Assembly (NCBI GenBank): GCA_036924855.1
Contig: JBAGRP010000001.1
Span: 3,534,001-3,598,000 of the forward strand
Source: Nitrobacteraceae bacterium AZCC 2146
GTDB taxonomy: Bacteria > Pseudomonadota > Alphaproteobacteria > Rhizobiales > Xanthobacteraceae
Direction of reading: 5' to 3'
DNA length: 64,000 nt
The translations under genes were made by a program, and so were the position numbers. Under the pieces are notes generated by a model that did not search any database, had not been told where the DNA came from, and was given only the letters and a program-made list of their open reading frames with translations. Below are positions 1,852-54,396 of the stretch, piece by piece (position 1 is the stretch's first letter; each line of letters begins with the position of its first letter).

Positions 1852-3075
1852 TCACTTCTTTATCGAGGGACATTCGCTCTGCTCCAAAGAACGGTATGCC
1901 ATGTCGCCTGGAATAGTCGAAACGATATCGTAGTAGTCCCAACGGCCGCTCGAATCCGACGGCTTTTTTACGCGCGCGACGTACATGTCATGAACCATCT
2001 GACCATCAGCCCTGAGCACTCCATTCGCGGCATATGCGTCCGAGATCGGCAACTCCCTCATTTTTTTAATCACGGTCAATCCATCGTCCGAGTTCGTCGC
2101 CTGGATGGCACGCAAATAATGTCGGACCGCCGAATATGTACCCGCCTGAGCCATGGTAGGCATACGACCGTGTTTGGCGAAGAATTTCTTCGACCACTGC
2201 CTCGATGCCTCGTCCCTATTCCAGTAAAATGCCGTCACGAACTGCAGTCCCTGCGCCGTTGAAAGCCCCATTCCGTCGACATCCGTCAGATAGACAACGG
2301 GCGCAACGACGTTTTGCACCTTCGATATCTGAAACTCATTCGCTTGCTTCACCGAGTTGACCAGATCGGCTCCTCCCGTGATGAGCGCAACTACTTGTGC
2401 CCCAGATCCTTGGCCCCGCAGAAGAAAGGAGCTAAAATCGGCGGTGTTAAGGGGATAACGCACCTCTTCCACGATCTTTCCACCATTTGCTTCGACAGCC
2501 TTGCGTATCTCGGCGGCAAAGGAATGCCCAAATGCATAGTCGACGGTTAGAAGAAACCACGTGTCGGAACCCGGCTTGGTCAGCGCGCTCGCCAATCCAT
2601 GGCCATTGGTGAAGCTGTTATAGACCCATTGCACAGAAGTCGGTGAACAGGCTTTGCCGGTGAAATCTGAGGAAGCGGAGGCGTTGAGTAGAATTTTAGT
2701 TCGAGTTCTGGCCAATTCGGTCACCGCGAACCCCACCGCCGAATTCGTAATATCCGCAATTGCATCGACCTGCTCAACCTCAAACCAGCGTCTTGCGATA
2801 GCTGCTCCGATATCCGCCTTGTTTTGATGATCAGCTGACACAATTTCGATCGGGACGCCATTGATAGCGTTGCCGAATTCTTCAGCCGCCAACCGCGCGG
2901 CGACCACCGAGCCTTCTCCCGACAGATCCGCAAGGGGTCCGGAGCGATCGTTCAGGACTCCGATTCGGACGACCCCATCCGAAATCTGCGTGCTTTCCGC
3001 GCGTACATCTTCCGGCATCGCACAGTTCCAAGTTATCAGCGCGGTGAATAAGGCTTCAATGATTCTCTTTTTCAT
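1852..3075 (-). CDS. ABC transporter substrate-binding protein (branched-chain amino-acid type)
   Basis: This 407-residue periplasmic binding protein belongs to the Leu/Ile/Val-type family (peripla_BP_6). A signal peptide of about 26 residues (KKR followed by a hydrophobic stretch, with an A-x-A-like end) is followed by RIGVLNDRSGPLAD, the usual start of lobe 1. Lobe motifs such as VSADHQNKADI and FLLTVDYAFGHSF are present. No permease or ATPase gene lies nearby, so it must share a transporter encoded elsewhere. Such orphan proteins often bind aromatic acids in alphaproteobacteria. Its start codon overlaps the stop of the CoA ligase gene (TAATG), so the two are translationally coupled. A paralogue lies at 46840. 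Confidence 0.9.
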   Translation of the reverse strand: MKKRIIEALFTALITWNCAMPEDVRAESTQISDGVVRIGVLNDRSGPLADLSGEGSVVAARLAAEEFGNAINGVPIEIVSADHQNKADIGAAIARRWFEVEQVDAIADITNSAVGFAVTELARTRTKILLNASASSDFTGKACSPTSVQWVYNSFTNGHGLASALTKPGSDTWFLLTVDYAFGHSFAAEIRKAVEANGGKIVEEVRYPLNTADFSSFLLRGQGSGAQVVALITGGADLVNSVKQANEFQISKVQNVVAPVVYLTDVDGMGLSTAQGLQFVTAFYWNRDEASRQWSKKFFAKHGRMPTMAQAGTYSAVRHYLRAIQATNSDDGLTVIKKMRELPISDAYAANGVLRADGQMVHDMYVARVKKPSDSSGRWDYYDIVSTIPGDMAYRSLEQSECPSIKK

Positions 3076-4760
3076 TACAGCCCACCATTTTTTGCGATCA
3101 GAACAACTTCTTTTCGACCACCGTCGTTAGATGCAGCGAGGGAACGTAGGTGGTCGGCGTCATACACTTCATCGAAGGCGGTCAATCGTAGGTCGCGTTT
3201 CAGGATCTTGCCGAACGCGTTTCTTGGTAGGTTGGCGACGAAGACAAATCGCTTGGGAACCTTGAAACCAGCGAGCCTCTCGCGACATGCATCGTGCAGC
3301 TCTCGGCTCAGTTGCAGGCGGCCGACAGGCTCAACCGAGCTAACGAGGACGGCACAGACCATCTCACCCCATCGATCGTCGGGGAGGCCTATCACCGCGC
3401 ATTCGAGAACTTCCGGGCGCAACATCAAGATTGACTCAACTTCTGTCGAAGGGACGTTTTCGCCGCCCGTGATGATCACGTCCTTCGCCCGGTCGAGAAG
3501 TGTAATTTTGCCATCGAGATCCATCTGGCCGATGTCGCCGGTGAAAACCCAATCCAGCTCTTCGGGATCATCCGCGCACGGCTTGAAAGTGTTTGCCGTG
3601 TTGCGCGGGTCGTTGTTGTAGTAGAGAGATTGGCCAAGGGTGCGCGTGACCACGTTTCCCGCAGTGTGCGGAGCGACCGCCCTTCCCTCATCATCGACAA
3701 TGCGTACGCGGGCGACGAGTGCCGGCTCGCCCACGCTCTCTCCAAAATTGAGAAAGTCGCGGGGCTGCTGCATTGATATGGAGCAGCACTCGGTCATGCC
3801 GTAGCAGACGAGCTTTTCCGCAGACGGAAACATCTCCGCGACCTTGACACGCAAACCCTTCGGCACGGGCGCAGAAGCCATCGCGATAGAGCTGACGGTT
3901 TTGATCGGCACACCATCCCACTTTCTATGGAGCGGAGCGATAACGGCCGGGACAAGAAAAAGGCAGTCCACCAGATCATCTCGCACCGTGCGAAGGAAAA
4001 TTTCAGGATCAAACGAAGTCCCGCCAGGGAAGATGACTGTTCCGGCCTGCCAGATTATCGGCATGCATGCCCATCCCAGCCCGGCCCCATGATAGATAGG
4101 CGCCGAGCACAGGGCCTTCTGGCCCGGCCGTATATTCCAATGACTCATGATCGAGAGCATGTCGATGAGACCGCCGCCATGTGACCACGTCGCCCCTTTG
4201 GACCCCCCGGTAGTACCGCCCGTCATTACGATCATGTAGGGATCCGCCAAACTTGCGCAGGGCGGAAACGGCGAGTCTGAATGGCCGGTTTGTATTGCCT
4301 CAAAGTCGTGGATTATCACGTCGGCGGAGCAACCTTCCGTCGCGCCGCAAAAGACCGCGTGTTTGACCTCGGTGCCTTCAATGAAGTTTGCAAACACAGA
4401 ACGTCCGATGAAGGCGCTAACGTTCTGCAAGTTAATAAACTGACGTGCCTCCGGCGCGGCCAGTCTAGGATTGAGAGGGGCCGATACCGCTCCGATCATC
4501 GCGCAAGCGAAGATCGATTCTATGGCCATGACTTCGTTCCGGAAAGCCGTCGCCACGACGTCGCCCTTACCGACGCCGATGGCCTGCAGACCACGGGCAA
4601 GTCGGATGGACCGACTACGAAGTTGCGCGTAGGTGCGGCGAATTCCGTTCAGCCGATCGTCGATCGCGAGCCGCGACGGATAGATCTCCGCGGCGCGATG
4701 CAGCATGAACTCTATGCCGCCACTGGGATGGCCGAAAGTCGGCGTCATACTTGAGCGCAT
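3075..4760 (-). CDS. Acyl-CoA synthetase (AMP-forming)
   Basis: This ANL-superfamily ligase activates a carboxylic acid to its CoA thioester through an acyl-adenylate. Visible motifs are the P-loop-like TGGTTGGSKGATWSH, the A5 motif YGMTECCS, the hinge region (FTGDIGQMD, then ITGGENVPSTEVE) and the catalytic Lys motif NAFGKILKRDL near the C terminus. I start it at the ATG at 4760 because GGGGGA sits 5-6 bases before it; the in-frame ATG at 4781 touches the dyad operator. It forms an operon with the binding protein downstream. The acid substrate is unknown. The gene resembles the ligase at 44281 in context, where a GST and a binding protein are again its neighbours. Confidence 0.9.
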   Translation of the reverse strand: MRSSMTPTFGHPSGGIEFMLHRAAEIYPSRLAIDDRLNGIRRTYAQLRSRSIRLARGLQAIGVGKGDVVATAFRNEVMAIESIFACAMIGAVSAPLNPRLAAPEARQFINLQNVSAFIGRSVFANFIEGTEVKHAVFCGATEGCSADVIIHDFEAIQTGHSDSPFPPCASLADPYMIVMTGGTTGGSKGATWSHGGGLIDMLSIMSHWNIRPGQKALCSAPIYHGAGLGWACMPIIWQAGTVIFPGGTSFDPEIFLRTVRDDLVDCLFLVPAVIAPLHRKWDGVPIKTVSSIAMASAPVPKGLRVKVAEMFPSAEKLVCYGMTECCSISMQQPRDFLNFGESVGEPALVARVRIVDDEGRAVAPHTAGNVVTRTLGQSLYYNNDPRNTANTFKPCADDPEELDWVFTGDIGQMDLDGKITLLDRAKDVIITGGENVPSTEVESILMLRPEVLECAVIGLPDDRWGEMVCAVLVSSVEPVGRLQLSRELHDACRERLAGFKVPKRFVFVANLPRNAFGKILKRDLRLTAFDEVYDADHLRSLAASNDGGRKEVVLIAKNGGL

Positions 4761-4783
4761 TGCGTTCCCCCGTATTTTCATTC

Positions 4784-4799
4784 TTTACCAATCAGTAAA
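4784..4799. promoter_or_regulatory. Dyad operator between ligase and GST operons
   Basis: This is a perfect inverted repeat with arms TTTAC and GTAAA around CAATCA. It lies between the divergent ligase and GST genes. It resembles the dyad at 12537 (TGAAC, CGATCA, GTTCA), sharing the core AC-CRATCA-GT. Both are near TetR-family genes, so it is likely the operator for the TetR encoded at 7289. This is inferred from sequence only. Confidence 0.55.
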
Positions 4800-4843
4800 A
4801 AACGTATACGACTTTCCCGACCGAGTCCAGAACGGGAAAGAAG

Positions 4844-5473
4844 ATGAAATTCTACGACTGTCCGACCGCGCCAAGTCCGCGGCGCATCCGCATTTTTCTC
4901 GCCGAAAAGGGCCTGAAGATCGAGACCGTTCAAGTCGATCTCGGAAGCGGGGAGCAGTTGAGCGGCGGATTCGCCGCGATAAATCCCAATCATACAGTGC
5001 CGGTTCTAGAGCTGGACGATGGCACGCGCCTTCTCGATTCGAACTCCATAAGCATCTTCCTAGACGAGAAATTCCCTGAACCGAATTTGACGGGACGCGA
5101 TCCGAAGGAGCGAGCCGTCGTCGCAATGTGGCAGCGGGAAATGGACATCAACGGTTTGATGGCTGTTGCCGAGTGTTTTCGGAACAGTTCGAGAGGTCTC
5201 AAAGGGCGGGCGCTGACCGGTGCCGTCGGCTACGAGCAAATTCCTGAGCTGGCGGAACGAGGCCGTCAGCGGGTTCGACATTTTTTTGCCGACCTTGATC
5301 GTCGGCTTGGGCAGCGCGAATACGTTTCCGGCGACCGTTTCACGGTGGCCGACATTACGGCCTTCGTTGCGATCGATTTTGCACGCGCGATCAAGGAGTC
5401 AATTCCGCCAGAAGCCGTTAACCTTCGTCGGTGGTACACATCCGTCTCATCGCGCCCGAGTATAGTGAGTTAG
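4844..5473 (+). CDS. Glutathione S-transferase
   Basis: This is a 209-residue cytosolic-type GST. The thioredoxin-like N-terminal domain ([22 protein letters not shown]) carries the usual [11 protein letters not shown] cis-Pro segment and the [11 protein letters not shown] glutathione-binding stretch. The all-helical C-terminal domain has the hallmark [13 protein letters not shown]. It would conjugate or use glutathione on an electrophile, or cleave an ether or halide; the substrate is unknown. It is the first gene of a plus-strand operon with a second GST 10 bases downstream, then a quinone oxidoreductase and a TetR gene. The divergent ligase operon shares its promoter region. Confidence 0.9.
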
Positions 5474-5483
5474 AGGAAATCAG

Positions 5484-6173
5484 ATGAACCGCCCAATCTC
5501 TCGCGAAGATATCCCATATCTTCTTTATACGGCGGCGACCCCCAACGGCTTCAAAGCGTCCATCATGCTGGAAGAGTTGGGCGTCAGGTACGAAGTGCGC
5601 GCCATGGATCTCGCGGCTGGCGAGCAGAAGCAACCAGCGTATCTCGATCTTAATCCGAATGGACGTATTCCGACTCTGATTGATCGAAATGCCGGTGATT
5701 TCGTCGTTTTTGAATCGGGCGCAATTTTGGTTTATCTAGCCGAGAAGGCTAATCAGTTCCTCCCCACCTCGGCCAAGGGGCGCTCGGAAGTTCTGCAATG
5801 GTTGATGTTTCAGGTCGGAGGGGTCGGGCCGATGCAGGGCCAAGCAAATGTCTTCGTGCGATATTTTAGCGAGCGCCTCCCGGCCGTGATACTCCGCTAT
5901 CAAAACGAAACCCGGCGACTTTATGAGGTGCTCAACTCGCGGCTTAAGGGCCGCGAATATTTATGCGGGGACTATTCGATTGCCGACATAGCGACGTGGC
6001 CGTGGATTCGCGGTTACAAATGGCCGCGCATTAATGTCGACGGTCTAGACGATCTGATGCTTTGGGATGAACGAATGGCCGCTCGTCCTGCGTGCCAGCG
6101 TGGAGTACTCGTTCCGCAACGCATGAGTGCCGAAGAGACGGTCGCCGTCGGACGCGAAAACGTGGTTCGGTGA
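5484..6173 (+). CDS. Glutathione S-transferase, Nu class (YfcG/YghU-like)
   Basis: This is a 229-residue GST. The [18 protein letters not shown] start matches the TPNGxK signature of Nu-class enzymes such as E. coli YfcG and YghU. It continues with [25 protein letters not shown] and the class-typical [11 protein letters not shown] segment. Known Nu-class members show disulfide-bond reductase and peroxidase activity with two bound glutathiones; that activity is only inferred here. It starts 10 bases after the first GST gene and is clearly co-transcribed. Its nearest relative in the window is the GST at 43547, which also sits beside a CoA ligase. Confidence 0.9.
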
Positions 6174-6213
6174 TGCGCCTCTTCCCTCTAGATCATTTAC
6201 CTGGAAAGACCGT

Positions 6214-7203
6214 ATGAAGTCAGTTGTGTGCCGTGCTTTCGGCGAGCCGAACAGTTTGTCGTTCGAGGAGATCGAGCCGATCGTGCCCGGCCACGGCCAG
6301 GTCCGGATTGCCGTGAAAATGGCCTCCATAAATTTCTTCGATATACTCATGATCCAAGGAAAATATCAGCGAAAACCTCCCTTTCCTTTCACGGTGGGAA
6401 CCGATGCCGCCGGCGACGTGCTAGAAATCGGACCCGGAATAACCACCGTGAAGCCAGGTGATCGGGTGATGGCGTTCAATTTGTCGGGCGGCGCATTCGC
6501 GGAAGAAATGGTTGTGGCCGAAGAAAACGTCTTTCTACTGCCATCATCTATCGACTACGCGGCGGCTGCAGCATTGAAAAGCGTCTACGGTACCGCCTTG
6601 TACACCCTTCGCGATCGGGCCCGGTTGAAGCGAGATGAGACTCTCCTGGTGCTCGGCGCGGCAGGCGGGCTTGGATTAGCTTTGGTCGAGGTCGGCGCCA
6701 TTCTGGGAGCTCGCGTCATTGCAGCCGTCGGCTCCGATGAAAAAGCTGAACGCCTCCGGGGGCGGGGTGTGCGCGATATCATCGTGGTATCAAAAAACAC
6801 CTTACGCGAGTCCGTGAATGAATTCACGGGCGGAACGGGCGTCGATGTAGTTGCTGATCCCGTTGGAGGCGACCTGTTCGATCAAGCTATTAAAACGGCC
6901 GCCTGGGGCGCACGCGTTTGCGTACTGGGTTTTTCGAGCGGACGTATCCCCCAGCTCTCGGTAAACTACGCGTTGCTGAAGAGCTTCGACCTGATCGGCG
7001 TCAATTACGGCGGCTGGGTCGATCGAGATCCGCAGGCGCATCGTAGAGAAACGCGCGATTTGATTGATATGTGCGCCACCGGAACGATCAAACCGGCGAT
7101 CTATAAGGTATTTTCTCTTGACGAGGCAGCAAAGGCGATGGCGATGCTGCAGAACCGCTCTGTCGTCGGCAAGGTTCTGCTTTCCACGCGCCCCATTCAT
7201 TGA
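6214..7203 (+). CDS. NADPH:quinone oxidoreductase family protein (MDR)
   Basis: This 329-residue medium-chain reductase lacks the structural zinc site and so belongs to the quinone-oxidoreductase branch. The N-terminal GroES-like half has GTDAAGDVLEIGPGITTVKPGD. The Rossmann half has the cofactor motif LGAAGGLGLALVEVG at about residues 148-162. I start it at the ATG at 6214 (KSVVCRAFGEP); a longer reading would overlap the GST end. It is third in the GST-GST-reductase-TetR operon. It likely reduces an activated alkene or quinone with NADPH; the substrate is unknown. Paralogous reductases occur at 19545, 36581 and 49066. Confidence 0.9.
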   Translation: MKSVVCRAFGEPNSLSFEEIEPIVPGHGQVRIAVKMASINFFDILMIQGKYQRKPPFPFTVGTDAAGDVLEIGPGITTVKPGDRVMAFNLSGGAFAEEMVVAEENVFLLPSSIDYAAAAALKSVYGTALYTLRDRARLKRDETLLVLGAAGGLGLALVEVGAILGARVIAAVGSDEKAERLRGRGVRDIIVVSKNTLRESVNEFTGGTGVDVVADPVGGDLFDQAIKTAAWGARVCVLGFSSGRIPQLSVNYALLKSFDLIGVNYGGWVDRDPQAHRRETRDLIDMCATGTIKPAIYKVFSLDEAAKAMAMLQNRSVVGKVLLSTRPIH

Positions 7204-7288
7204 CAAGGATAATACTGCATGACAGACGTCGAAGTCCGATATTTTGTGCAAAGATCGATTGCCCCCCTGATTTTGCGAGGAGCGTAAG

Positions 7289-7912
7289 ATAGCCAGACCC
7301 CGCGACTTTGAAATTGACGATGTTGTGCGCAAGGCGCTCTTAGTATTCTGGCTTAAGGGCTACGAAGGTGCGTCGTTGAGCGACATTGAAGGCGCAACGG
7401 GTGTCGCTCGTACGAGCTTGTACAACGTGTTCGGCAACAAAGAGGGCCTATTCTATGCAGCCCTAGAGCGATACATCGAAGCGACAAAGAGGCTTTATGA
7501 GAAATATTTGAAGAAAGAAGATATCGAAAGCCTTGAAAAACTGATCGATGCGTACGCGCGCTCGGAGAAACTTGGTGATGTCGGTAGCTGGGGCTGTCTG
7601 ATGCTGAACACCATTACGGCGGCCGACGGCGTCAGCCCAGAAGCCCATCGGATGATCGAAGCGTTCCGGACCTACGCCATCCAAAAAATCGAGACCGTAC
7701 TCAAGGCGGCGCACTCCAATGGGGAGATTGTGGATTCCTCGATTAATTGCCACGCCTGGACCGAGTTCATCCTTGTAACCATGTGGGGAGCGAAAGCCGC
7801 CATCCGACACGCTGGTAACACGAGAGCTGCGCTTCCCGTGGCAAATACGCTCTCGCAAATTTTGCGTGGGTTGCGCACAGCGCAAAGGATTGCAACAATA
7901 GAAAAGGTATAG
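7289..7912 (+). CDS. TetR-family regulator with apparent ATA start codon
   Basis: This one-component repressor has an N-terminal helix-turn-helix (GYEGASLSDIEGATGVARTSLYNVFGNKEGLF) and a C-terminal ligand domain. The frame reads I-A-R-P-R-D-F from an ATA codon at 7289. That is exactly where TetR relatives have ATG (compare MGRPKQF in the TetR at 12437), and a GGAG box sits 6 bases upstream. No ATG, GTG or TTG lies in frame between the preceding stop (7268) and GTG 7325, and starting at that GTG would remove part of helix 1. The paralogue at 63710 has the same ATA. It closes the GST operon and probably controls the operator at 4784. Confidence 0.8.
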   Translation: MARPRDFEIDDVVRKALLVFWLKGYEGASLSDIEGATGVARTSLYNVFGNKEGLFYAALERYIEATKRLYEKYLKKEDIESLEKLIDAYARSEKLGDVGSWGCLMLNTITAADGVSPEAHRMIEAFRTYAIQKIETVLKAAHSNGEIVDSSINCHAWTEFILVTMWGAKAAIRHAGNTRAALPVANTLSQILRGLRTAQRIATIEKV

Positions 7913-8247
7913 TGCGGCCGAAGGAGGCGAAGAATAAGAAAGCTGGTCGTGTCACTTAGCCGAAAGCTTCCGAATCCATCACTTGCTCAACCTCGTCACT
8001 CGCTACGTTGGACATGATCGCCTCGGAGAACCGCTGACCACGTTGAGGCAACGCCGCCATCGTCATGAAGCGGTTGGCGCAATCGAAATTGCCTACTCTG
8101 GTGCTTTTTTCAAATATCGGACATCGATCGCACCGGTGTGATGATTTCAATCTTCGGCGTCGCCGCCGAGACATTTGGCCGCGATTCGGCCAAAAGCTTT
8201 CATGTACTCGGCATGATGGTGCGGATCTCGGCATCAGATGTTAGTAG

Positions 8248-8396
8248 ATTGCCTCAGCCTTAAGGCAGGCTAACAGCGGCACGACGATTTAGGCGGTCTA
8301 CCGTAAGATGGGAATCTCGAAATCGACATTTTATTGGTGAAGGAGGTCTACGCTGGCATGGCCGTATTTCGCCGTCATGGCGTGATGCGGCTCTCC
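8248..8396 (+). mobile_element. Decayed IS3-family OrfA fragment
   Basis: Reading from 8248 gives IASALRQANSGTTI, a stop, then AVYRKMGISKSTFYW. This is the helix-turn-helix part of an IS3-family OrfA (usually ...VCRKMGISEATFYNWKKKYGGM). After the Trp codon the frame is broken and continues one frame over as KEVYAGMA. It is thus a remnant with one nonsense and one frameshift change. The rest of the 7913-8412 gap shows no convincing gene; a 92-residue minus-strand frame at 7956-8234 was not recognised. Confidence 0.65.
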
Positions 8397-8412
8397 CGAA
8401 CCGATGGAAGGA

Positions 8413-9324
8413 TCATGCGACCTTCGCCTTGAACCATTTGACGATGCCCTCTCCGATCTCGTGAGGGTTATCCTCCATCAGCATGAAGATGCCTGGCCCT
8501 AGGTCGAGGGTATCGATGTTCTTAAAGTTGTTTGCCGCCCAGGCTGCATTCTCCGGCGTCACGAACAGTCCAGGGGTCGCGTGAATCATCAGCTTCGGAA
8601 TTGGCGATCGTTTCAGCCATTCGCTGTACGCGGCGATTACCCAGGCTGTGTCGATCGGGTCGCCGGCAAAGGACCAATCACGCGGAAGCCGGGCCATCGC
8701 GCGGCGCGATTCCCAATCCGGGAACGGGGCGCGATAGTGGTCCATCTCCTCCTCGCTCAGCTTTCGGATAGTGACGGCGGGAATCGCACTCTCCACAATC
8801 ATGTTCTGCCCCATCAGAAGTTCTGGGCCGAGCTCCGGAGAGCGGAACTTGCTGAACTCCTCAGCGATGAGCGGCCAAGTCTCCTGGAGCGTCCCCAGCG
8901 GCTTCACGGGGAACTCAGAGAACGCGACGGCGCGAACGCGTTCGGGAAATCGCCGGGCCAAGTTGAGGCCTACGAGCGCCCCCCAATCGTGGATGACCAG
9001 CGTGATATTCCGAAGGTCGAGCTGAACCACGAACTCCTCGATGAATCGGATCTGATCGAATATCCTGTACTCGATGTCGGGGTGATCGGACTTCCCGAAC
9101 CCGATGAAGTCCGGCGCGATACAGCGGCCAAGCGGCTCGATATGGGGGATGACGTTTCGCCAGCAATACGAGGAGTGGGGATTGCCGTGTAGAAATAAAA
9201 ACGGGTCGCCCGTTCCGACATCGACATAGTGAAGCCTCGAGCCGTAGAGGTTGACATAATTTTCCGCATAGGTGAACGCGGCCGAGATCGGCCTTTTTGT
9301 ATCCGTGGCGGAACTTCCTTCCAT
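8413..9324 (-). CDS. Haloalkane dehalogenase homologue with Phe at the catalytic His position
   Basis: This 303-residue alpha/beta hydrolase is closely patterned on haloalkane dehalogenases such as DhaA. It has HGNP with the halide-binding Asn48, the nucleophile motif HDWG with Asp113 and Trp114, and Glu137 in SEFPVKP. Where DhaA has GPGLHYLQED (His272), this protein has GPGIFMLMED, so the catalytic His is Phe280. The offsets 48/113/137/280 against 41/106/130/272 confirm the alignment. A His-to-Phe change in DhaA blocks hydrolysis of the alkyl-enzyme ester. A GGGAGG box supports the ATG at 9324. The paralogue at 53491 keeps the His. Element copy A lies 74 bases upstream. Confidence 0.85.
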   Translation of the reverse strand: MEGSSATDTKRPISAAFTYAENYVNLYGSRLHYVDVGTGDPFLFLHGNPHSSYCWRNVIPHIEPLGRCIAPDFIGFGKSDHPDIEYRIFDQIRFIEEFVVQLDLRNITLVIHDWGALVGLNLARRFPERVRAVAFSEFPVKPLGTLQETWPLIAEEFSKFRSPELGPELLMGQNMIVESAIPAVTIRKLSEEEMDHYRAPFPDWESRRAMARLPRDWSFAGDPIDTAWVIAAYSEWLKRSPIPKLMIHATPGLFVTPENAAWAANNFKNIDTLDLGPGIFMLMEDNPHEIGEGIVKWFKAKVA

Positions 9325-9398
9325 CACGCAGCCCTCCCGATTGAGAATATATTTTTTTTGTATTGACTGTGGACGGATGTTGGCCACTTTCTCGCCGC

Positions 9399-9444
9399 CG
9401 CATTAGACGGCAGCCCGGACTAATAGTTATTCCATAAAAGAATG
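9399..9444 (-). promoter_or_regulatory. 46-bp conserved element, copy A
   Basis: The fixed blocks, in plus-strand order, are CGCATTAGACGG, GGACTAATA, TATTCC and AAGAAT, with variable 6-, 2- and 4-base gaps. The same 46-base layout recurs at 39068-39113 and 61231-61276. ATTAG and CTAAT form an inverted repeat with 13 bases between. It lies 74 bases upstream of the dehalogenase start and points the same way relative to the gene as the other copies. Nothing recognisable is seen in the remaining 9445-9628. Confidence 0.7.
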
Positions 9445-9628
9445 AATTTGGTTGATTGCCGGCCCATCGGCCTCACTGCGTGGCCAGCGTGAGGCATAGC
9501 CAGCTCGGCGATCTTGGGGAGCATGGTGGGATGGGTTGCGCATGAACACACCGGCCCGTGCCCAGTGCTTCGGCGCCTTGCTGTCATGAACCGGCTGCAC
9601 CAGTCTTTCTAGCAGAACGCTTGATAGC

Positions 9629-10687
9629 TCACGGAATGATCCGATCCCGCTGAAAATCTGAAAACATCCGAAGAAACATCGCCTCAGTGTCCACCAGATC
9701 GTGGAATCCGAAATGGCGGGCCTTGCTCGTATCGGAGACAATGTCGTAATCCGATGCGAATACGTTGTCCGGGTAGCCCCAAGCCGCTATCTCTTCGTAG
9801 CGGTATCTTTGCAATCCGTTCTTTTCGACGATCCCATCCCATATCGGACCCTTGTCAGCCATGGACCGCGTGAGGTTGATGTGTCGTGGCGGAGCCAGCT
9901 CCATCCCGAAGAAATTGGCGAACTTAGGCCATACGTTCTGCCACCTGATAAGATCACTATTGGTGATGTTAAAAGCCTGGTTTGCGCATCTCGGATCGGT
10001 CGCCATCCACTCGACGGCCTTTGCTAGAAGCGCGGCATCTGTACATTGGTAGAGTGCGGTATAGGCTCCGGGCTTGCCTGGAAAACTGAGAGGCAGCCCC
10101 AGCGCCTTGCAGATGTTTGCATAGACAGCGATCGCCAGGGTTAGGTTCATCGGTCCTCCCGTGGAGAATCCGCAGACCGCGTGCGGTCGCCCTACCGACC
10201 ACGTCCAGCGCTTCCCTTTCTGAAATTCTTCGAGAAAGTCCTGCTGGTCGTAATAGAAATTCGGCGGCATGTGCCGCGGATCGTCCTCCTTTGTCGGAGT
10301 CTTGTACGGACCGAGGTGGTTACCGTACCATCTGGTGCCCTGAGAAAGGTGGACATGCTCGAGCGCGGGTGAGGCGGCCTCGACCGTCTTTACGAGGTTG
10401 AAGAACATGTTGGAGTTCGCCAACACCGTCTCGCTGGGATCCGAGCGCTCCGTGATAGCCAAGTAGAACAGGTGGGAGATATTCGTAAGCGGCCCGAGTT
10501 TTGCCCGACAGTCGGCCGGATCGAGAAGATCCACGGCGATGTATCTGTATTCACCGGAAATCCGCGGTTTGCGGCGCGATACGGCAATGATATCCCAGCC
10601 ACCCTGCTCAAGCAGGTGAGACAGCATGTAGCCGCCGGCCAGGCCGGAGGCACCTGTGACAAGTGCGGTACGCTTCGCCGTCGTCAT
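9629..10687 (-). CDS. PRISE-type SDR (progesterone 5-beta-reductase/iridoid synthase-like enone reductase)
   Basis: This 352-residue atypical extended SDR begins with the cofactor motif VTGASGLAGGYMLSHLLEQGGW. In place of the classical YxxxK it has the PRISE motif FYYDQQDFL (NFYYxxxDxL), followed by WSVGRPHAVCGFS. Known PRISE enzymes reduce activated C=C bonds of enones with NADPH. That supports a 1,4-enone reductase role here; the substrate is unknown. The gene is divergent from a LysR gene at 10819, its probable regulator. The 131-base gap between them holds two ATCGAT half-sites about 16 bases apart. Confidence 0.85.
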   Translation of the reverse strand: MTTAKRTALVTGASGLAGGYMLSHLLEQGGWDIIAVSRRKPRISGEYRYIAVDLLDPADCRAKLGPLTNISHLFYLAITERSDPSETVLANSNMFFNLVKTVEAASPALEHVHLSQGTRWYGNHLGPYKTPTKEDDPRHMPPNFYYDQQDFLEEFQKGKRWTWSVGRPHAVCGFSTGGPMNLTLAIAVYANICKALGLPLSFPGKPGAYTALYQCTDAALLAKAVEWMATDPRCANQAFNITNSDLIRWQNVWPKFANFFGMELAPPRHINLTRSMADKGPIWDGIVEKNGLQRYRYEEIAAWGYPDNVFASDYDIVSDTSKARHFGFHDLVDTEAMFLRMFSDFQRDRIIP

Positions 10688-10818
10688 CTATCATCTCTCC
10701 TGTACGTCACCCCGTCGTGAGATCGGGGCTTCGACCAGGATGGTTACAAGCGGGCGTGACATTGGGCAAATCGATCATTAGTATCTTGTGTATCGATCTC
10801 AGCAATGATGCCCGCTCC

Positions 10819-11766
10819 TTGAACCTAGCCTCGTCGGATTTGAACCTTCTTGTAGCTTTCGATGCATTGATGGCGGAGCGCAGCGTCACCCGCGCCGGCC
10901 AGCGCATTGGTCTGGGCCAGCCCGGCATGAGTGCAGCGCTGGCGCGCTTGCGCTTGACGTTCCGGGACGAACTGTTCGTCCGGATTCCGGGAAAGCCCAT
11001 GAGGCCGACTGCGCGCGCAATCTCGTTGCACGCGCCAATTGCCGAAATTTTGGCCCGCGTAGGTCGGGTTCTCGACGCTCAGTCAACGTTCGACCCTGCA
11101 ACCGTACGCGCAAGCATCCGCATAGCGACCGGCGACCCGGCCGGAACGCTTGTCGCACCTCGCCTGCTGAGACTGCTCTCTACGGAGGCCCCTGGGATCG
11201 ATATCCGACTTCTGGCTCTTAACAAGCGCGACGCGTTCGATCAAATCGACCGCGGCGAAATCGACCTGGTCTTCGCTTCGTTTGCCAACGCGCCGAAGCG
11301 CATCCGACGAGAACGACTTTTTACCGATACCTACGTTTGCGTCGTCAGACGCGAACAAGCGCGCCGGGCCATACATCGAACCCTCGATCTAGAAACCTAC
11401 GTGACGACCCCCCACATCCTGATGACTCTGGCGGGAGACGATCATGGGATCGTGGATGAAGCTCTGGCAAAGCTCGGACGCCGTAGGCGTGTAGCGGTGA
11501 CCGTTCCAAACACATATTTGATTCCTCGCCTCGTGGCGGAAATCGGAATGATCAGCCACCTTCCACGTCGTATCGCCGCCGAAATTCTCCGCGGCTCCGA
11601 TCTAGTGATGCTTTCGCCGCCGGTAGCGCTGCCCGAGTGGCATATCGACATGTATTGGGGAGCTGCATCGGCCTCGGATCCCACCGCATCATGGATCCGA
11701 TCCCGACTGTCCGAAATCGGGGAGCAGATCAGGCAGGTAGGTAAACCGCGGCCGCAGCGGCTTTGA
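10819..11766 (+). CDS. LysR-family transcriptional regulator (NodD-like branch)
   Basis: This is a LysR regulator with N-terminal winged helix-turn-helix (DLNLLVAFDALMAERSVTRAGQRIGLGQPGMSAALARLR) and a two-lobed effector domain. The spacing DLNLL-x-FDALM is typical of the NodD/NahR/LinR-like branch, which activates catabolic genes on binding an aromatic or flavonoid-like ligand. No in-frame ATG lies near the domain start, so I use the TTG at 10819; the true start may be slightly upstream. It is divergent from the PRISE reductase gene, the classical LysR arrangement. The effector is unknown. Confidence 0.8.
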   Translation: MNLASSDLNLLVAFDALMAERSVTRAGQRIGLGQPGMSAALARLRLTFRDELFVRIPGKPMRPTARAISLHAPIAEILARVGRVLDAQSTFDPATVRASIRIATGDPAGTLVAPRLLRLLSTEAPGIDIRLLALNKRDAFDQIDRGEIDLVFASFANAPKRIRRERLFTDTYVCVVRREQARRAIHRTLDLETYVTTPHILMTLAGDDHGIVDEALAKLGRRRRVAVTVPNTYLIPRLVAEIGMISHLPRRIAAEILRGSDLVMLSPPVALPEWHIDMYWGAASASDPTASWIRSRLSEIGEQIRQVGKPRPQRL

Positions 11767-11882
11767 CGATCGTCAAAGGCTGACAACGCTGTTCGGCAAC
11801 CCTTGAGCGCACTGCTGGCCCTGGCGAGCTACAACCAAGCTGTTTTCAAAGCACCTAGCGAATGGTGGAAGAATGGGTCGCC

Positions 11883-12437
11883 TCAAAGCCCCCGAAGCAT
11901 CCTCATGAAGTTTGCGACCTTTCCCTGGGCTAGAGATGGATCCAACTTCAAATTCTCTTCGATGCTGATTCCCGAAAAGAAAACGGATATCAAGTCGCAT
12001 ACCGCCCCAGCGTCCATTTTTGGATTTTCGGCCCGCACGTTCCTCATCACAAGTTCGCGGATCTTCTGCCGACCTTCGACGATGAGGTTGCGGGCTTCGG
12101 ACGGCATGCACTCCAACTCGCGCATGGAACTCACGGCAAAACAGCCGCGCTGTCCGCGTGCTCGGCTTGGACCTTCTTCGAGAAATCTTTGAATGTTGTC
12201 CCAACCGAGTGGCTCCGCCGCCAGGTAGTCAGTACCGTCGCGACCGTCGAGATAGTACCTGAGACATTCTAGGTAGAGCTCTTCCTTGCTCTCGAACTCC
12301 CCATAGAGCCCCGACTTGTTCACGCCAGTGGCATGCTCGAGGTCCGGCAAACTCGCTCGAGCAAATCCCTGTTTCCAGAATACCGGTAAGGCCTTCCGGA
12401 GTACCTCGTCTCGCGTGAATTGCTTGGGTCTTCCCAT
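11883..12437 (-). CDS. TetR-family regulator
   Basis: This 184-residue repressor begins MGRPKQFTRDEVLRKALPVFW and carries the helix-turn-helix ARASLPDLEHATGVNKSGLYGEFESKEEL. A Cys-containing segment (RGCFAVSS) lies in the regulatory domain, as in the AcrR/NemR-like branch. The ATG at 12437 is chosen because the N-terminal GRPK pattern begins there; the longer frame adds 21 unrelated residues. A perfect dyad (12537-12552) about 100 bases upstream is a likely self-operator. The SnoaL-like gene at 12712 lies on the other side of the dyad and may be its target. Confidence 0.85.
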   Translation of the reverse strand: MGRPKQFTRDEVLRKALPVFWKQGFARASLPDLEHATGVNKSGLYGEFESKEELYLECLRYYLDGRDGTDYLAAEPLGWDNIQRFLEEGPSRARGQRGCFAVSSMRELECMPSEARNLIVEGRQKIRELVMRNVRAENPKMDAGAVCDLISVFFSGISIEENLKLDPSLAQGKVANFMRMLRGL

Positions 12438-12536
12438 AGCCGCAATATCGTCGCTCGGCTCAAAAACTTCAATGCCCCTTTCCAGCCAACGAACTTGCAA
12501 TAGAAGATTCTTGCCCCAACAGAGATAACATTATTT

Positions 12537-12552
12537 TGAACCGATCAGTTCA
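12537..12552. promoter_or_regulatory. Dyad operator upstream of TetR and SnoaL genes
   Basis: This is a perfect inverted repeat with arms TGAAC and GTTCA around CGATCA. It has the same arm length, the same 6-base centre and almost the same core as the dyad at 4784. It lies between the divergent TetR gene (start 12437) and SnoaL-like gene (start 12712). Confidence 0.55.
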
Positions 12553-12711
12553 TAATTAACTTGATCCTCATTTGCTGCGCTTTATCGTAACCACAAGGTC
12601 GGGGCCCATCGCGGGTCGGATACGGCCCCGCGAGCGGAAACGGTCGGACTTTTTCGCCGGATTCTGCGAACGGCGCGACAACGGCAAAGCATGCAAACGA
12701 TGGAGCAACGA

Positions 12712-13113
12712 ATGACCACCAATTCCGAAGAGAAGAACAAGAAACTGGTTCTTGAGGCGTTCGATACGCTGTTCAATAAAAGGGACTACGAAGCCGCGGA
12801 GAAGTACTGGTCGCCGAATTACATCCAGCATAGCGCGCATATCCCGCCGGGGCGCGACGGACTGTTCAATCTGATTCGAGGCGTACCACCTTCGATGCGC
12901 TACGAACCCGGCCTAATCCTTGCCAACGACGACCATGTGATCGTCCACGGCCGATTTTCGAACATCGGGCTACCTAAAAATTGGATTGCTACGGACATCG
13001 TGCGCATCGCCGACGGCGTCCTCGCCGAACATTGGGATGTGCTGCAGGACGAAGCGACCAGGGCCGAGTCGCAGAGCGGATTGCCGATGTTCGGCGAGAA
13101 ATTCCCGGAATGA
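12712..13113 (+). CDS. SnoaL-like/NTF2-fold protein
   Basis: This 133-residue predicted ester-cyclase-like protein of the SnoaL/NTF2 fold has the core KLVLEAFDTLFNKRDYEAAEKYWS, then NYIQHSAHI, which is typical of the bacterial SnoaL-like clade. The fold forms a cone-shaped pocket used by cyclases, isomerases and hydrolases; no reaction can be assigned. GGAG at 12702 supports the ATG at 12712 over the two upstream ATGs. It is a close paralogue of the gene at 34687. Its 3' end overlaps the convergent GlxA reading frame by 144 bases, which is unusual. Confidence 0.85.
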   Translation: MTTNSEEKNKKLVLEAFDTLFNKRDYEAAEKYWSPNYIQHSAHIPPGRDGLFNLIRGVPPSMRYEPGLILANDDHVIVHGRFSNIGLPKNWIATDIVRIADGVLAEHWDVLQDEATRAESQSGLPMFGEKFPE

Positions 13114-14151
13114 CGGTGCGTCGCCTTGCAGAGTGGCGGGCTCCTGAGTGACGACCAGATCGGCGTCACGGAGCGCGGGCAACGAGCCCGATGGGACATC
13201 GCAGGCGGGTTGCGCGTCCCTCCGCGCTTGACGCCGCATCGCCTGCGGTGGCAGCCCGAAGGCGCGCACGAATGCCCGCCGCATTCTTTCGCGATCCGCA
13301 AAGCCCGTTTGCCGCGCAATGGTCTCGATGCTATGCCGGCTGTCTTCCAACATCAGACGGGCGGCCTCGAGACGGAGTTTCTCGATGGCCTTTGCCGGCG
13401 ACTCGCCGGTCTCTGCTGCGAACGCGCGGGTGAATTGGCGTGGGCTCAGATGGGCCACATCTGCAAGCTTTTCCACGGTCAGCTTGGCGTGGAGATTTCT
13501 CCTCGCGAATGCGAGAGCGGTTTGAATTCGGTCGGACTTCGGCTCGAGTTGGAGAAGGGCCGAGAACTGCGACTGTCCGCCGGCGCGCTTATGATGAATC
13601 ACCATCTTCTTTGCGACTGTCCGAGCGACTTCCGGACCGATATCCCCTTCGACCATCGCGAGTACTAGATCCATCGTCGCGGTCATGCCCGCTGATGTCC
13701 ATACTGAGCCGTCGATGACGAATATCCGGTCCTCCTCTACCCTTACCTTCGGAAAACGCCTCTGAAGCTCGCGCGCGTAGTCCCAATGGGTCGTCACCCG
13801 TTTGCCGTCGAGAAGACCTGCTTCGGCCAACGTGAATACACCGACACAAGTCGCCGCCACCCTGCGGGAGATCTCAAGAGCCTTCCGTAGGAACGCCAGC
13901 ATTCCCTCGGACGGACTGAACGACTGTTCCGTGCTGCCGCCAACGATAAGCGTATCGAAGAGGGAATCGTCGAACGGCTCGGTTTCGACCATCAGCCCGG
14001 CGGACGTCCGCACTGGTCCCCCGTTCTGCGAAAGAAAATGAACGTCGTAGCGGCGTTCACCAAGCTCCGAGTTCGCCACCTCGAAGACGGACATCGCGGC
14101 GAAGGTCATCACGTGAAACCCAGGAAAGGTCACCACTCCTATTCGCTGCAA
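12970..14151 (-). CDS. GlxA-type regulator (DJ-1/PfpI domain plus AraC HTH) with long C-terminal extension
   Basis: This 393-residue regulator has an N-terminal class-I-amidotransferase-like domain (residues 1-180, with Cys102 in ATCVGVF at the nucleophile-elbow position). It is followed by two AraC-type helix-turn-helix units (about residues 222-308, KLTVEKLADVAHLSPRQFTRAF and IETIARQTGFADRERMRRAF). Family members normally end soon after the second unit. Here about 80 extra residues follow and run antisense through the 3' end of the SnoaL-like gene, suggesting a lost stop codon. The domain order marks it as a transcription factor, probably ligand- or redox-responsive. The regulator half at 21199-21600 is a paralogue. 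Confidence 0.85.
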   Translation of the reverse strand: MQRIGVVTFPGFHVMTFAAMSVFEVANSELGERRYDVHFLSQNGGPVRTSAGLMVETEPFDDSLFDTLIVGGSTEQSFSPSEGMLAFLRKALEISRRVAATCVGVFTLAEAGLLDGKRVTTHWDYARELQRRFPKVRVEEDRIFVIDGSVWTSAGMTATMDLVLAMVEGDIGPEVARTVAKKMVIHHKRAGGQSQFSALLQLEPKSDRIQTALAFARRNLHAKLTVEKLADVAHLSPRQFTRAFAAETGESPAKAIEKLRLEAARLMLEDSRHSIETIARQTGFADRERMRRAFVRAFGLPPQAMRRQARRDAQPACDVPSGSLPALRDADLVVTQEPATLQGDAPSFREFLAEHRQSALRLGPGRFVLQHIPMFGEDAVGDAHDVRSNPIFR

Positions 14152-16959: not shown

Positions 16960-17409
16960 ATGGCCCGCGCTTATTCTCTGGATCTTCGTGAACGCGTTGT
17001 GGCGGCGGTTGCGGCGGGCGAGAGCTGCCGGAAGGTAGCCGCGCTCTTCAAGGTGAGCGTGGCGAGTGCGGTGAAATGGTCGCAACGCGCACGCGCCACC
17101 GGAAGCCCCGCGGCCCGCCCTATGGGTGGCAATCGACCCTATGCGCTGGCCGACCAGCGGGACTGGCTGCTGAAACGCCTTGCCGATCAGCCTGATGTGA
17201 CGTTGCGGGCGCTGGTGGCGGAGCTTGCCGGGCGCGGCATCAAGGTCAGCTATTATGCGGTGTGGCACTTCTTCGAGCATGAAGGCATCAGCTTCAAAAA
17301 AAAGCCTTCACGCCAGCGAGCAGGATCGCCCGGACGTGGCAAGGCGGCGGGCGCGATGGAAGCGCCTGCAAAACAAGCTCGATCCAGGCCGCCTCGTCTT
17401 TATCGATGA
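16960..17409 (+). CDS. IS630 transposase, N-terminal frame
   Basis: This frame encodes the DNA-binding half of the transposase: two helix-turn-helix units starting ARAYSLDLRERVVAAVAAGESCRKVAALFKVS, then the linker ending HFFEHEGISFKKK. At 17296-17303 eight consecutive A bases lie where the frame should pass into the catalytic half. Past that point this frame is out of register and ends at 17409. Many IS630 elements join two such frames by slippage on an A run. Confidence 0.8.
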   Translation: MARAYSLDLRERVVAAVAAGESCRKVAALFKVSVASAVKWSQRARATGSPAARPMGGNRPYALADQRDWLLKRLADQPDVTLRALVAELAGRGIKVSYYAVWHFFEHEGISFKKKPSRQRAGSPGRGKAAGAMEAPAKQARSRPPRLYR

Positions 17410-17902
17410 GACCTGGGCCAAGACCAACATGACGCGCACCCATGGCCGGGCGCCACGTGGCGAACGGCTGGTCGCGAAGGTGCCGCACGGTCATTGGCAA
17501 ACCCTGACCTTCCTGGCAGCGCTGCGCTCGGATCGCATCGACGCTCCCTGCGTGATCGACGGGCCGATCAACGGCGACAGCTTCCTTGCTTATGTCGAGC
17601 AGGTGCTGATCCCAGCCCTGAAGCCGGGTGACATCGTCGTCATCGACAATCTCGGCAGCCACAAGGGAAAGGCCGTTCGCCGCGCGATCCGCGCGGCCGG
17701 CGCGAAGCTGTTCTTCCTTCCGCCTTACAGTCCAGATCTCAACCCGATCGAGCAGATGTTTGCCAAGCTCAAAACCCTGCTGCGCAAGGCCGCAGAACGA
17801 ACCGTCGAAGCCACGTGGCGCAGGATCGGAGCGCTCCTCAGCGCCTTCAGCCCTCAAGAATGCGCGAACTATTTGACAAACTCCGGATACGCTTCAACGT
17901 GA
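17225..17902 (+). CDS. IS630 transposase, catalytic frame
   Basis: This overlapping frame supplies the DDE domain. FIDETWAKTNMTRTHGRAP carries the first Asp, VIDNLGSHK the second, and PPYSPDLNPIEQMFAKLK the Glu. The real product would join the upstream frame at the A8 run (17296-17303) into ISFKKSLHASEQD. From that point to the end the domain looks complete and undamaged, so the element may be active if slippage occurs. Confidence 0.8.
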   Translation: MPGAASRSAIMRCGTSSSMKASASKKSLHASEQDRPDVARRRARWKRLQNKLDPGRLVFIDETWAKTNMTRTHGRAPRGERLVAKVPHGHWQTLTFLAALRSDRIDAPCVIDGPINGDSFLAYVEQVLIPALKPGDIVVIDNLGSHKGKAVRRAIRAAGAKLFFLPPYSPDLNPIEQMFAKLKTLLRKAAERTVEATWRRIGALLSAFSPQECANYLTNSGYAST

Positions 17903-21198: not shown

Positions 21199-21600
21199 TC
21201 AGAACGAAGCGAGTGGGTATGACGCGTTGCGAATCTCCTGCGGCGTTTGGCCAAAAGCGCGTAGAAACGCTCGGCGCATGCGCTCCCGGTCGCCAAAGCC
21301 AGTTTCCTTCGCGATTTCCTCGACGGGGCGCCGCCCTTGTTCCAGCGCCAGCCTGAGGTTCTCAATCGCTTTCGCGGGCGATTGCCCGGTTTCGACGTGA
21401 AACACGCGACTGAACTGCCGCGGGCTGAGGCGCGCCGCCTCGGCGAGCAGTTCCACCGACAACGGCGCATGAAGATTACGCCTGGCAAAGAGGAGCGCGT
21501 CCTGCACACGATCGGATTTCGCATCGAGCTCCAACAAGGCAGAATGTTGTGATTGGCCCCCCGCGCGGCGGTGGTGAACTACAAGCGCCTTAGCGACAAC
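21199..21600 (-). pseudogene. GlxA/AraC regulator fragment, fused in frame to IS110
   Basis: About 133 residues match the C-terminal half of the GlxA-type regulator at 12970: ALVVHHRRAGGQSQHSALLELD, then the two helix-turn-helix units LSVELLAEAARLSPRQFSRVF and VEEIAKETGFGDRERMRRAF. The DJ-1/PfpI half is missing. Upstream the same frame continues into an IS110 transposase, giving a chimeric 303-residue frame. It is probably a broken gene, though a DNA-binding product is conceivable. Confidence 0.75.
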
Positions 21601-30286: not shown

Positions 30287-30413
30287 TCGCGTCAGGCCCG
30301 ATAAGCCCGCAGGCTCAAGGCGCCCGTAACTCATGCTGGCGGAAGGCTCTGAACTACCGCCGCGTCGGCCGGCCACGCTGCCGGTTTCCGGCGGCCGAAG
30401 AAAGGATTCTAAT

Positions 30414-31160: not shown

Positions 31161-31247
31161 CCCCGCTCGGCTGGCGGGGATTGCGCAACTATTACGCCCA
31201 CCGCCCGATCAACGCACAATGCATATCAAGTCGAAGGAGGAAGTCCG

Positions 31248-45816: not shown

Positions 45817-45818
45817 GA

Positions 45819-46829: not shown

Positions 46830-46839
46830 ACGTACCACC

Positions 46840-53319: not shown

Positions 53320-53340
53320 AGCGCAGCCTATTTGAGTGGG

Positions 53341-53373
53341 TTCCGAAAATCGGAAGGGTGCTTGCCAAATTTG
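53341..53373. promoter_or_regulatory. Dyads in the LysR/haloalkane-dehalogenase divergent promoter
   Basis: TTCCGA and TCGGAA surround AAA (53341-53355, perfect inverted repeat), followed by the palindrome CAAATTTG (53366-53373) within TTGCCAAATTTGCC. Either could be the LysR binding site. Confidence 0.5.
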
Positions 53374-53490
53374 CCAGATGGTCCCGCAGAGCGGAAGGGC
53401 CTATATCCCGCCGAGATGGTTGTGAGGCCGGTTTACGTCGCCCAAACCGAAGCTTTCGACGCCCGAGGCAACGAGGAAAGGATTGGACCC

Positions 53491-54396
53491 ATGTTGTCCA
53501 TCGAAGAACCGGTGAAGCTGTTTTGCGAGGTGCTTGGCAAGAAGATGGCCTATTCGGAACTCGGCAGCGGGCTACCGGTCGTCTTCCTACACGGCAATCC
53601 GGCTTCCTCTTATATCTGGCGCAACATCATGCCGCATGTCGCGCCGCAGGCCCGCTGCATCGCACCGGACCTCATTGGCATGGGAGACTCGGAAAAGCTG
53701 GAAGGCACTGATCCTGATCGTTACGGCTTCTTGCAGCATCGTCGTTTCGTCGACCGGTTGCTCGAAAAGCTCAACGTGACGAAGAACATCGTCTTGGTTG
53801 GCCATGACTGGGGCGGGGCGCTCGCCATGGATTGGGCCCGGCGCCATCCCGGTGCGATACGCGGCATCGTCTATTTCGAGACGCTCGTGCGCTCGCGAAG
53901 TTGGGACGAGATGGATCAATCAGCGCGCAGCCTCTTCGAGCGCTTACGTTCGCCCGAAGGCGAGGAACTGGTGCTGAAGGACAATGTCTTTATTGAGAAG
54001 CTCTTTCCAGCCCGAATCTTGCGGTCGCTTTCCGAATCCGAAATGGCCGTCTATCGGAGGCCCTATCTGCAGCCCGGTGAAGACCGACGCCCAACTCTCC
54101 AGTTTCCGCGCGAGATCCCAATCGATGGCGCACCGGCGCATACGGCTCAGATCGTCAAAGACTACGGCGACTGGATGGCGACGAACGACATACCTAAATT
54201 GTTTATCAACGGCGACCCAGGCGCCGTCCTCACCGGCAGCCTGCTCGAGTTCTGCCGCACCTGGCGCAATCAGGAACAGGTCACGGTCCGCGGCAACCAT
54301 TTTCTTCAGGAAGATTCGCCGCATGAGATTGGCCAGGCGATCGCCCGATGGCTCACCCGTTTGCCCGGTAGCCGCCAGGCCGCCGCGGCCTTGTAG
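53491..54396 (+). CDS. Haloalkane dehalogenase, full catalytic set
   Basis: This 301-residue alpha/beta hydrolase has HGNP with halide-binding Asn36, HDWG with nucleophile Asp106 and Trp107, Glu130 in YFET and the catalytic His270 in GNHFLQED. This is the complete set known from DhaA-type haloalkane dehalogenases, which hydrolyse carbon-halogen bonds through an alkyl-enzyme ester. The start at 53491 is taken from domain alignment; a longer in-frame start at 53332 adds 53 residues across the regulatory dyads. The paralogue at 8413 differs by Phe at the His position. Divergent from a LysR gene. Confidence 0.88.
   Translation: MLSIEEPVKLFCEVLGKKMAYSELGSGLPVVFLHGNPASSYIWRNIMPHVAPQARCIAPDLIGMGDSEKLEGTDPDRYGFLQHRRFVDRLLEKLNVTKNIVLVGHDWGGALAMDWARRHPGAIRGIVYFETLVRSRSWDEMDQSARSLFERLRSPEGEELVLKDNVFIEKLFPARILRSLSESEMAVYRRPYLQPGEDRRPTLQFPREIPIDGAPAHTAQIVKDYGDWMATNDIPKLFINGDPGAVLTGSLLEFCRTWRNQEQVTVRGNHFLQEDSPHEIGQAIARWLTRLPGSRQAAAAL

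Follow-up and report, generated by a model that had tools for sequence, protein, structure and literature searches.

The window analysed here, a 64-kb stretch of the genome of Nitrobacteraceae bacterium AZCC 2146, carries on its minus strand a gene (8413..9324) for P0001, a 303-aa protein resembling the haloalkane dehalogenases (HLDs) but without their catalytic histidine. The open reading frame starts with an ATG at 9324 and consists of 303 codons and a stop that ends at 8413; a Shine-Dalgarno-like GGGAGGG (9332..9338, minus strand) can be read directly 7 nt upstream of the ATG. Pfam assigns the protein to Abhydrolase_1 (6.2e-24) and finds no extra domain beyond the alpha/beta hydrolase. Against the NCBIfam equivalog model for haloalkane dehalogenase, NF002938, it scores 320.5 bits and passes the curated cut-off of 241. 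The solved structures closest to it in sequence are AncHLD5, DhaA variants and HaloTag. The AlphaFold2 model has a mean pLDDT of 95.1 (alignment depth 84 sequences), and its top Foldseek matches are structures of DhaA, AncHLD5 and HaloTag (~1.1 Å, TM ~0.93). The alpha/beta-hydrolase fold with helical cap that marks subfamily HLD-II is present, according to Pfam and to the 1.1 Å fit of the model to DhaA.

Upstream of the P0001 gene, across a gap of 304 bp, lies a gene for a PRISE-type reductase (9629..10687, minus strand; Pfam PF22917, 4.1e-25), a possible transcriptional partner that may be co-transcribed, and then a divergent gene for a LysR-family regulator (10822..11766, plus strand; Pfam PF03466/PF00126). 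Downstream and convergent is a TetR gene (7325-7912), beyond which are found a quinone-oxidoreductase-like gene, two GSTs, an acyl-CoA ligase and a periplasmic binding protein. The annotated neighbours include none that could be recognised as halogen-related. Rfam and tRNA scans of the 64-kb window gave no matches; promoter-like sites were at the level of shuffled sequence and terminator-like sites about one standard deviation over it. The context suggests catabolism or detoxification, and a catabolic role is plausible because the window has several reductases, dehydrogenases, acyl-CoA ligases and GSTs.

The window also contains a His-containing HLD paralogue (53332..54396, plus strand; NF002938, 400.7 bits) with 36-38% identity to P0001. 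That it keeps its His had been claimed in the initial annotation, and the whole pentad is in fact kept. Apparent LysR regulators and an MFS transporter, read by eye, lie beside it. Elsewhere in the window, a TetR-family gene at 63039-63674 is 77% identical to the one at 7325-7912 in the opposite part, which suggests duplication, and similar gene sets occupy 1852-6173 and 43547-48033 (periplasmic binding protein 50%, acyl-CoA ligase 30% and GSTs 47% identical, the last for one pair). These sets of GST, ligase and reductase genes presumably recall lignin-ether catabolism. An ORF at 21199-22110 has matches to AraC-type HTH as well as to IS110 transposase models and is apparently either fused or disrupted, and a DDE_3 transposase domain lies within 17225-17902.

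HLDs use a catalytic pentad with a histidine base (PMC10503415), and the alkyl-Asp ester formed by SN2 attack is cleaved by water that the His activates (PMC11301625, PMC6331733); here and below, literature statements refer to excerpts of the cited papers. The initial annotation had proposed that P0001 has Phe at the position of this base, DhaA His272, with the other four pentad residues in place, and the alignment bears this out. Phe280 (codon TTC, 8485..8487, minus strand) falls on DhaA His272 in an alignment that is ungapped around GPGIFMLMED/GPGLHYLQED. On the same strand, Asn48 (9181..9183; the second halide-binding position), Asp113 and Trp114 (8983..8988; nucleophile and halide-binding positions) and Glu137 (8914..8916; the catalytic-acid position) correspond to DhaA Asn41, Asp106, Trp107 and Glu130.

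Three protein homology searches, of which the best 120 each of 3327, 5460 and 5844 matches were listed, gave with the query and the window paralogue a set of 232 proteins. The site is reached by 228 of these; the four left out (P0019, P0020, P0034 and P0053) are truncated proteins ending before it. At the DhaA-272 column, the 228 have 214 His, 7 Phe and 7 Trp, and the 14 non-His proteins are precisely P0001 and its 13 nearest full-length relatives. Asp113, Trp114 and Glu137 are invariant in 228/228, while Asn48 is Asn in all 14 members of this clade and, among the other 214, Asn in 184, Gln in 28, Asp in one and Ala in one. The Gln type (e.g. P0029, P0031 and P0042) is another variation of the pentad, found in homologues that have the His. 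For membership of HLD-II, the Asp nucleophile, the Asn/Trp halide pair and the Glu acid at the DhaA Glu130 position are found in 14/14 clade members; the His base, present in 214/214 of the others, is replaced by Phe (7/14) or Trp (7/14). As this defining residue is absent, P0001 is better described as HLD-like than as an HLD, despite having passed the NCBIfam equivalog cut-off.

At the DNA level, the site encodes His in 88 of 90 matches in DNA loci and Phe in two, those of the AZCC 2146 genome and of Bradyrhizobium erythrophlei GAS478 (locus L018), with the codon TTC in both. A sequencing error is very unlikely, since at least two base changes separate TTC from a His codon and since TTC recurs in L018. 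The 13 full-length relatives of P0001, with global identities of 61-91%, came from a search of 5.8 billion proteins and were among the best 120 of 3327 matches. No further full-length member appeared among the best 120 of 5460 matches to the most distant clade member, nor among the best 120 of 5844 matches in a third search with a clade profile. The search for other Phe-280 homologues that the initial annotation had recommended yields, among the matches listed, 13 full-length relatives and L018, all with Phe or Trp. A natural His-less homologue, as then described, does exist; it is not the single odd protein it had seemed, the change being a conserved clade trait accompanied by a rebuilt pocket.

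A maximum-likelihood tree was built from 51 rows, 36 of them hand-picked His-type and 15 Phe/Trp (L018 among them), with omission of the two site columns requested. In it the Phe/Trp rows form one side of one branch with support of 100/100 and a single change of label. The stem of the clade measures 0.78 changes per column, and its nearest relatives, P0016-P0018, all have His. On this tree the His is lost once. A tree of 18 rows with the site columns included requires at least two state changes, His to Phe/Trp once and Phe to Trp once, with weak inner support; more changes between Phe and Trp are possible because the Trp rows are scattered in the 51-row tree. The passage from Phe to Trp takes two base changes and would therefore point to selection for a bulky aromatic residue. 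Between the P0001 gene and L018, which are 87% identical in nucleotides, dN/dS by NG86 is 0.051/0.594 = 0.087 (YN00 0.086, LWL85 0.10), the one pair that could be compared because the other members are present as protein only. Judged from this pair, the clade gene is under purifying selection. The truncated or frame-shifted relatives P0019, P0020, P0034 and P0053, four copies in all, suggest that some strains can do without the gene, unless the assemblies are at fault.

P0015, a deep branch of the clade, differs from P0001 at 39% of positions. P0007, which is 87% identical to P0001, bears the source name Paraburkholderia, and from this single name transfer between lineages appears likely. P0013, from a Bradyrhizobium MAG, has Gln-Asp-Trp at residues 112-114, around the nucleophile, where the other 13 members have His-Asp-Trp. 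Nine of the 13 full-length relatives come with a source name, and all nine are called dehalogenases.

Strict searches found the gene in its own genome alone among 18 genus and 391 family genomes (E<=1e-75) and among 397 order and 398 phylum genomes (E<=1e-90); these sets overlap, and in the family, order and phylum sets scoring was limited to the top few candidates of each genome. A looser cut-off of E<=1e-40 gave an HLD homologue in 7 of 61 genomes, its own included. A scan of GTDB r220 (84 980 species) returned one clade member, L018, among 79 loci (from the best 80 of 122 confirmed stretches); six peptide patterns were used, so that divergent members may be missed. Positions 7000-12600 of the window match 10 of 17 other genus genomes, over ~110 bases at most. 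Over part of the gene, the 16S of the AZCC 2146 genome is 94% identical to that of GAS478, which suggests an alphaproteobacterium. There is no conserved operon, the immediate neighbours differing between the window and L018. The sole close pair common to both is a short-chain reductase (by similarity) and an HbpS-like gene (74% and 86% identity), which in the window lie at 30333-31682, ~21 kb from the P0001 gene. Just upstream of the clade gene in L018, at 5781-6000, an ORF resembles by eye a cut-short N-terminal part of a flavin monooxygenase (LDVLVVGAGFAGL). Carriage on plasmids or viruses was also considered and rejected: positions 4001-14000 of the window have no near match among plasmids, plasmid proteins include relatives below 60% identity only (142 records), and in viral contigs 37 stretches fitted one or other of two patterns without any being confirmed.

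The loss of the His is one of several changes in the active site. The 14 clade members were compared by column with 70 His-type sequences selected from those listed. In the 70, 80 columns show conservation of 95% or more. The whole clade retains 54 of these, and 23 differ in some members. At the remaining three no member has the conserved residue: the His at 280 has given way to Phe/Trp, the Phe at 176 (DhaA F168) to Ile/Met, and the Leu at 73 (DhaA L66) to Phe. Four of the 214 His-type proteins likewise have Met at 176. The Gln of column 283 (DhaA Q275) has become Met in 12 members and Ala in one, and one member retains it. Met281 (8482..8484, minus strand) occupies the column of DhaA Tyr273, in which the clade has Met (9), Leu (3) or Ala (2) and the other 214 have Phe (133), Tyr (79) or Leu (2). 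In DhaA numbering, 205 has become Leu (14/14), 209 Trp (11/14) and 211 Phe (14/14); V245, mostly Ala or Val in the 70, is Leu in 13/14, and L246, mostly Leu or Ile, is Phe in 13/14. Positions 41, 106, 107, 130 and 149 are kept in 14/14. At DhaA position 175 the clade has Ala, Ser or Met; little weight attaches to what it shows at 175 and 176, because the His-type proteins also mostly lack the Lys and Cys found there in DhaA. No new His appears at the aligned pocket positions. New polar residues include Tyr27 (13/14), His81 (13/14; Lys in the 70 His-type sequences and in P0015) and Glu/Asp156 (14/14; mostly hydrophobic in the His-type), the last adjoining the pocket residue Phe157 and aligning with DhaA T148, a tunnel-entrance residue (PMC3475669).

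At the level of sequence, P0001 belongs to a natural clade of HLD-like proteins that have Phe or Trp, stably maintained, in place of the His that activates water. The reading that we tentatively put forward, at rather less than an even chance, is that its members are covalent alkyl acceptors (traps, sensors or transferases) that have kept the alkylation half-reaction and lost hydrolysis. P0001 would bind an alkyl halide or another SN2 substrate, and Asp113 would displace a leaving group held by Asn48 and Trp114. The alkyl-Asp113 ester would then stay unhydrolysed, for want of the base and because less water enters the pocket. The protein might act as a single-turnover trap or sensor; alternatively, it might hand the alkyl group on to some acceptor that is not water, which could again be a halide, though a different one. 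A sensor, if there is one, would detect alkyl halides rather than halide ions, the initial annotation having spoken of halide. The sequence suggests a first half-reaction left intact and a second impaired twice over, by the missing base and probably by a drier pocket.

Several features were counted for covalent capture. The constancy of Asn48 in 14/14, at a position variable among relatives, suggests a retained halide site. The likeness to engineered DhaA H272F, drawn in the initial annotation, also holds: in that mutant the ester is trapped at Asp106 (PMC13376172), and another report has a change at 272 blocking hydrolysis (PMC9119580, where the names of the two residues seem to be interchanged). 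Directed evolution of probe binding in H272F led to K175M+C176G+Y273L, with 10,000-fold faster binding (the CAVER 3.0 paper, PMC3475669), and the clade has Met, Leu or Ala at the same 273 in 14/14. DhaA V245 and L246 are tunnel bottlenecks and the variant I135F+C176Y+V245F+L246I+Y273F has reduced water access (PMC3475669); the clade is bulkier at both bottlenecks (Leu, Phe), consistent with less water. Phe by itself is no guarantee of an efficient trap, since H272F needed such evolution and since HaloTag7 carries Asn at 272 (PMC8388125).

Other considerations count against a covalent acceptor. The invariance of Asp, Trp and Glu may be structural, since it extends to all 228 homologues. In DhaA the change of His to Phe alone made a slow tag (PMC3475669), and loss of the base may simply kill activity, by analogy with a fluoroacetate dehalogenase in which His to Ala leaves no appreciable activity (PMC12955510). 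The clade has lost DhaA F168, which touches the ligand in the pocket (PMC6331733), and haloalkanes may just as well have been shut out by the filling of the pocket. The new Glu/Asp156, His81 and Tyr27 could serve some other chemistry, the annotated neighbours include no recognised halogen gene, and the surroundings of the gene are not the same in the two genomes compared.

The main rival is a non-covalent binding protein or receptor, a pseudoenzyme whose pocket has been rebuilt for a hydrophobic ligand and whose catalytic residues are kept for the fold or for contacts. We regard it as somewhat unlikely. It would account for the clade-specific Phe73, Ile/Met176, Leu213, Trp217 (11/14), Phe219, and Leu253 with Phe254 (13/14), and for the tolerance in P0013 of Gln at His112, beside the nucleophile; its best precedent, by analogy, is the receptor GID1, where the active-site His was lost on descent from hormone-sensitive lipases and the Ser and Asp still hold the ligand (PMC3531792). 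Against it, Asn48 is constant where relatives vary, which suggests that the halide site is kept, and Pfam finds no extra domain, nor is a partner known. A non-hydrolytic enzyme, for instance an isomerase, a lyase or a catalyst of alkyl/halide exchange that can dispense with the base, is a more doubtful proposition. Purifying selection (one pair) on a protein with an intact nucleophile and halide cradle, a lost base and a changed pocket is what such an enzyme would present, and short-chain reductases, quinone oxidoreductases/zinc-type dehydrogenases, acyl-CoA ligases and GSTs occur in the window; yet no conserved gene partner points to a substrate, the immediate neighbours in the window and in L018 being different. 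HLDs with a mutated His carry out transhalogenation. No paper on this was found in the open-access PMC literature.

Hydrolytic dehalogenation with another base (Glu/Asp156, His81, His112, His288, Glu137 or a water network) is improbable, even with four of the five pentad residues intact. In its favour are two residues new to the clade, Glu/Asp156 beside Phe157 in 14/14 and His81, which replaces the Lys of 70/70 His-type sequences in 13/14. Position 156 is at the tunnel entrance in DhaA terms (PMC3475669) and appears far from the ester, His81 is Lys in P0015, and Gln283 has given way to Met (12/14) or Ala (1/14). His288 was correctly dismissed as a substitute in the initial annotation: it is common to the His-type relatives and is Lys in P0015. 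His112 is likewise rejected, being Gln in P0013. That the feature is an artefact or the mark of a decaying gene is extremely improbable. Truncation or frame-shift does affect P0019, P0020, P0034 and P0053, but read error, pseudogene and misalignment are for practical purposes ruled out by the recurrence of the feature in 14 proteins, at 61-91% identity to P0001, and in L018, by a dN/dS of 0.087 and by the ungapped alignment, along with a pLDDT of 95. Covalent alkyl acceptance is, then, the most likely single mechanism, though it falls short of being probable in its own right. A narrower form of it, possible but held with greater reserve, is that the clade is the bacteria's own HaloTag, a dedicated protein that removes or senses alkyl halides by having its Asp alkylated, either for good or reversibly by halide; the loss of the base, the disappearance of the aromatic residue at DhaA 273 and the narrowing of the water tunnels would then have evolved together.

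A single residue, His272, decides both hydrolysis by HLDs and its deliberate arrest in HaloTag. To our knowledge its loss is known solely as a laboratory change. A search of open-access PMC by titles and beginnings of abstracts, a collection outside which most subscription journals lie, found no report of a natural His-less HLD among the papers listed, and the excerpt of PMC7034887 has nothing on loss of the His. The clade may have escaped attention because pipelines such as EnzymeMiner 2.0, which filters by essential residues (PMC13355053), would discard its members. Automatic naming labels these proteins dehalogenases though the defining residue is absent. As the rest of the pentad is kept, the clade allows the natural use of the covalent half-reaction to be asked about directly, and it supplies candidate self-labelling scaffolds of Phe and Trp types. 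If the covalent reading is true, this would be, as far as we know, the first natural self-alkylating relative of the dehalogenases, whether a suicide scavenger, a covalent sensor or a halide-exchange enzyme.

Among known systems, GID1, the gibberellin receptor, is alike in being an alpha/beta hydrolase without its active-site His in which other catalytic residues still touch the ligand (PMC3531792). The clade shares with it the loss of the His and the retention of the other catalytic residues, as an analogy only: GID1 belongs to a different subfamily, has a Ser nucleophile, is a plant protein, and has a known ligand and partner. Fluoroacetate dehalogenases also have the alpha/beta-hydrolase fold. 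They resemble HLDs in their Asp nucleophile and in a His base whose change to Ala inactivates the enzyme (PMC12955510), and differ from the clade in a halide site of His/Trp/Tyr, in their substrate and in the presence of the base. With the HLD-II enzymes (DhaA, LinB and AncHLD5), the likeness extends to the fold (TM ~0.93), to 44-46% identity between P0001 and the DhaA/AncHLD5 structures, and to the Asp nucleophile, Asn/Trp halide pair and Glu acid at matching places. The clade departs from them in lacking the catalytic His and in alterations at DhaA positions 66, 168, 205, 211, 272 and 273 in 14/14 members, and at 209, 245, 246 and 275 in most. With HaloTag the clade has in common the sequence feature of a trap, a non-basic residue at 272 (Phe/Trp) with the remaining pentad intact, and also Met/Leu/Ala at 273. 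HaloTag is an engineered DhaA H272F (HaloTag7 has H272N, and the evolved H272F adds K175M, C176G and Y273L), whereas the clade is natural and conserved. Half of its members (7/14) have Trp at 272, and its F168 to Ile/Met, L209 to Trp and L246 to Phe are not among the HaloTag changes reported in the excerpts of the cited papers.
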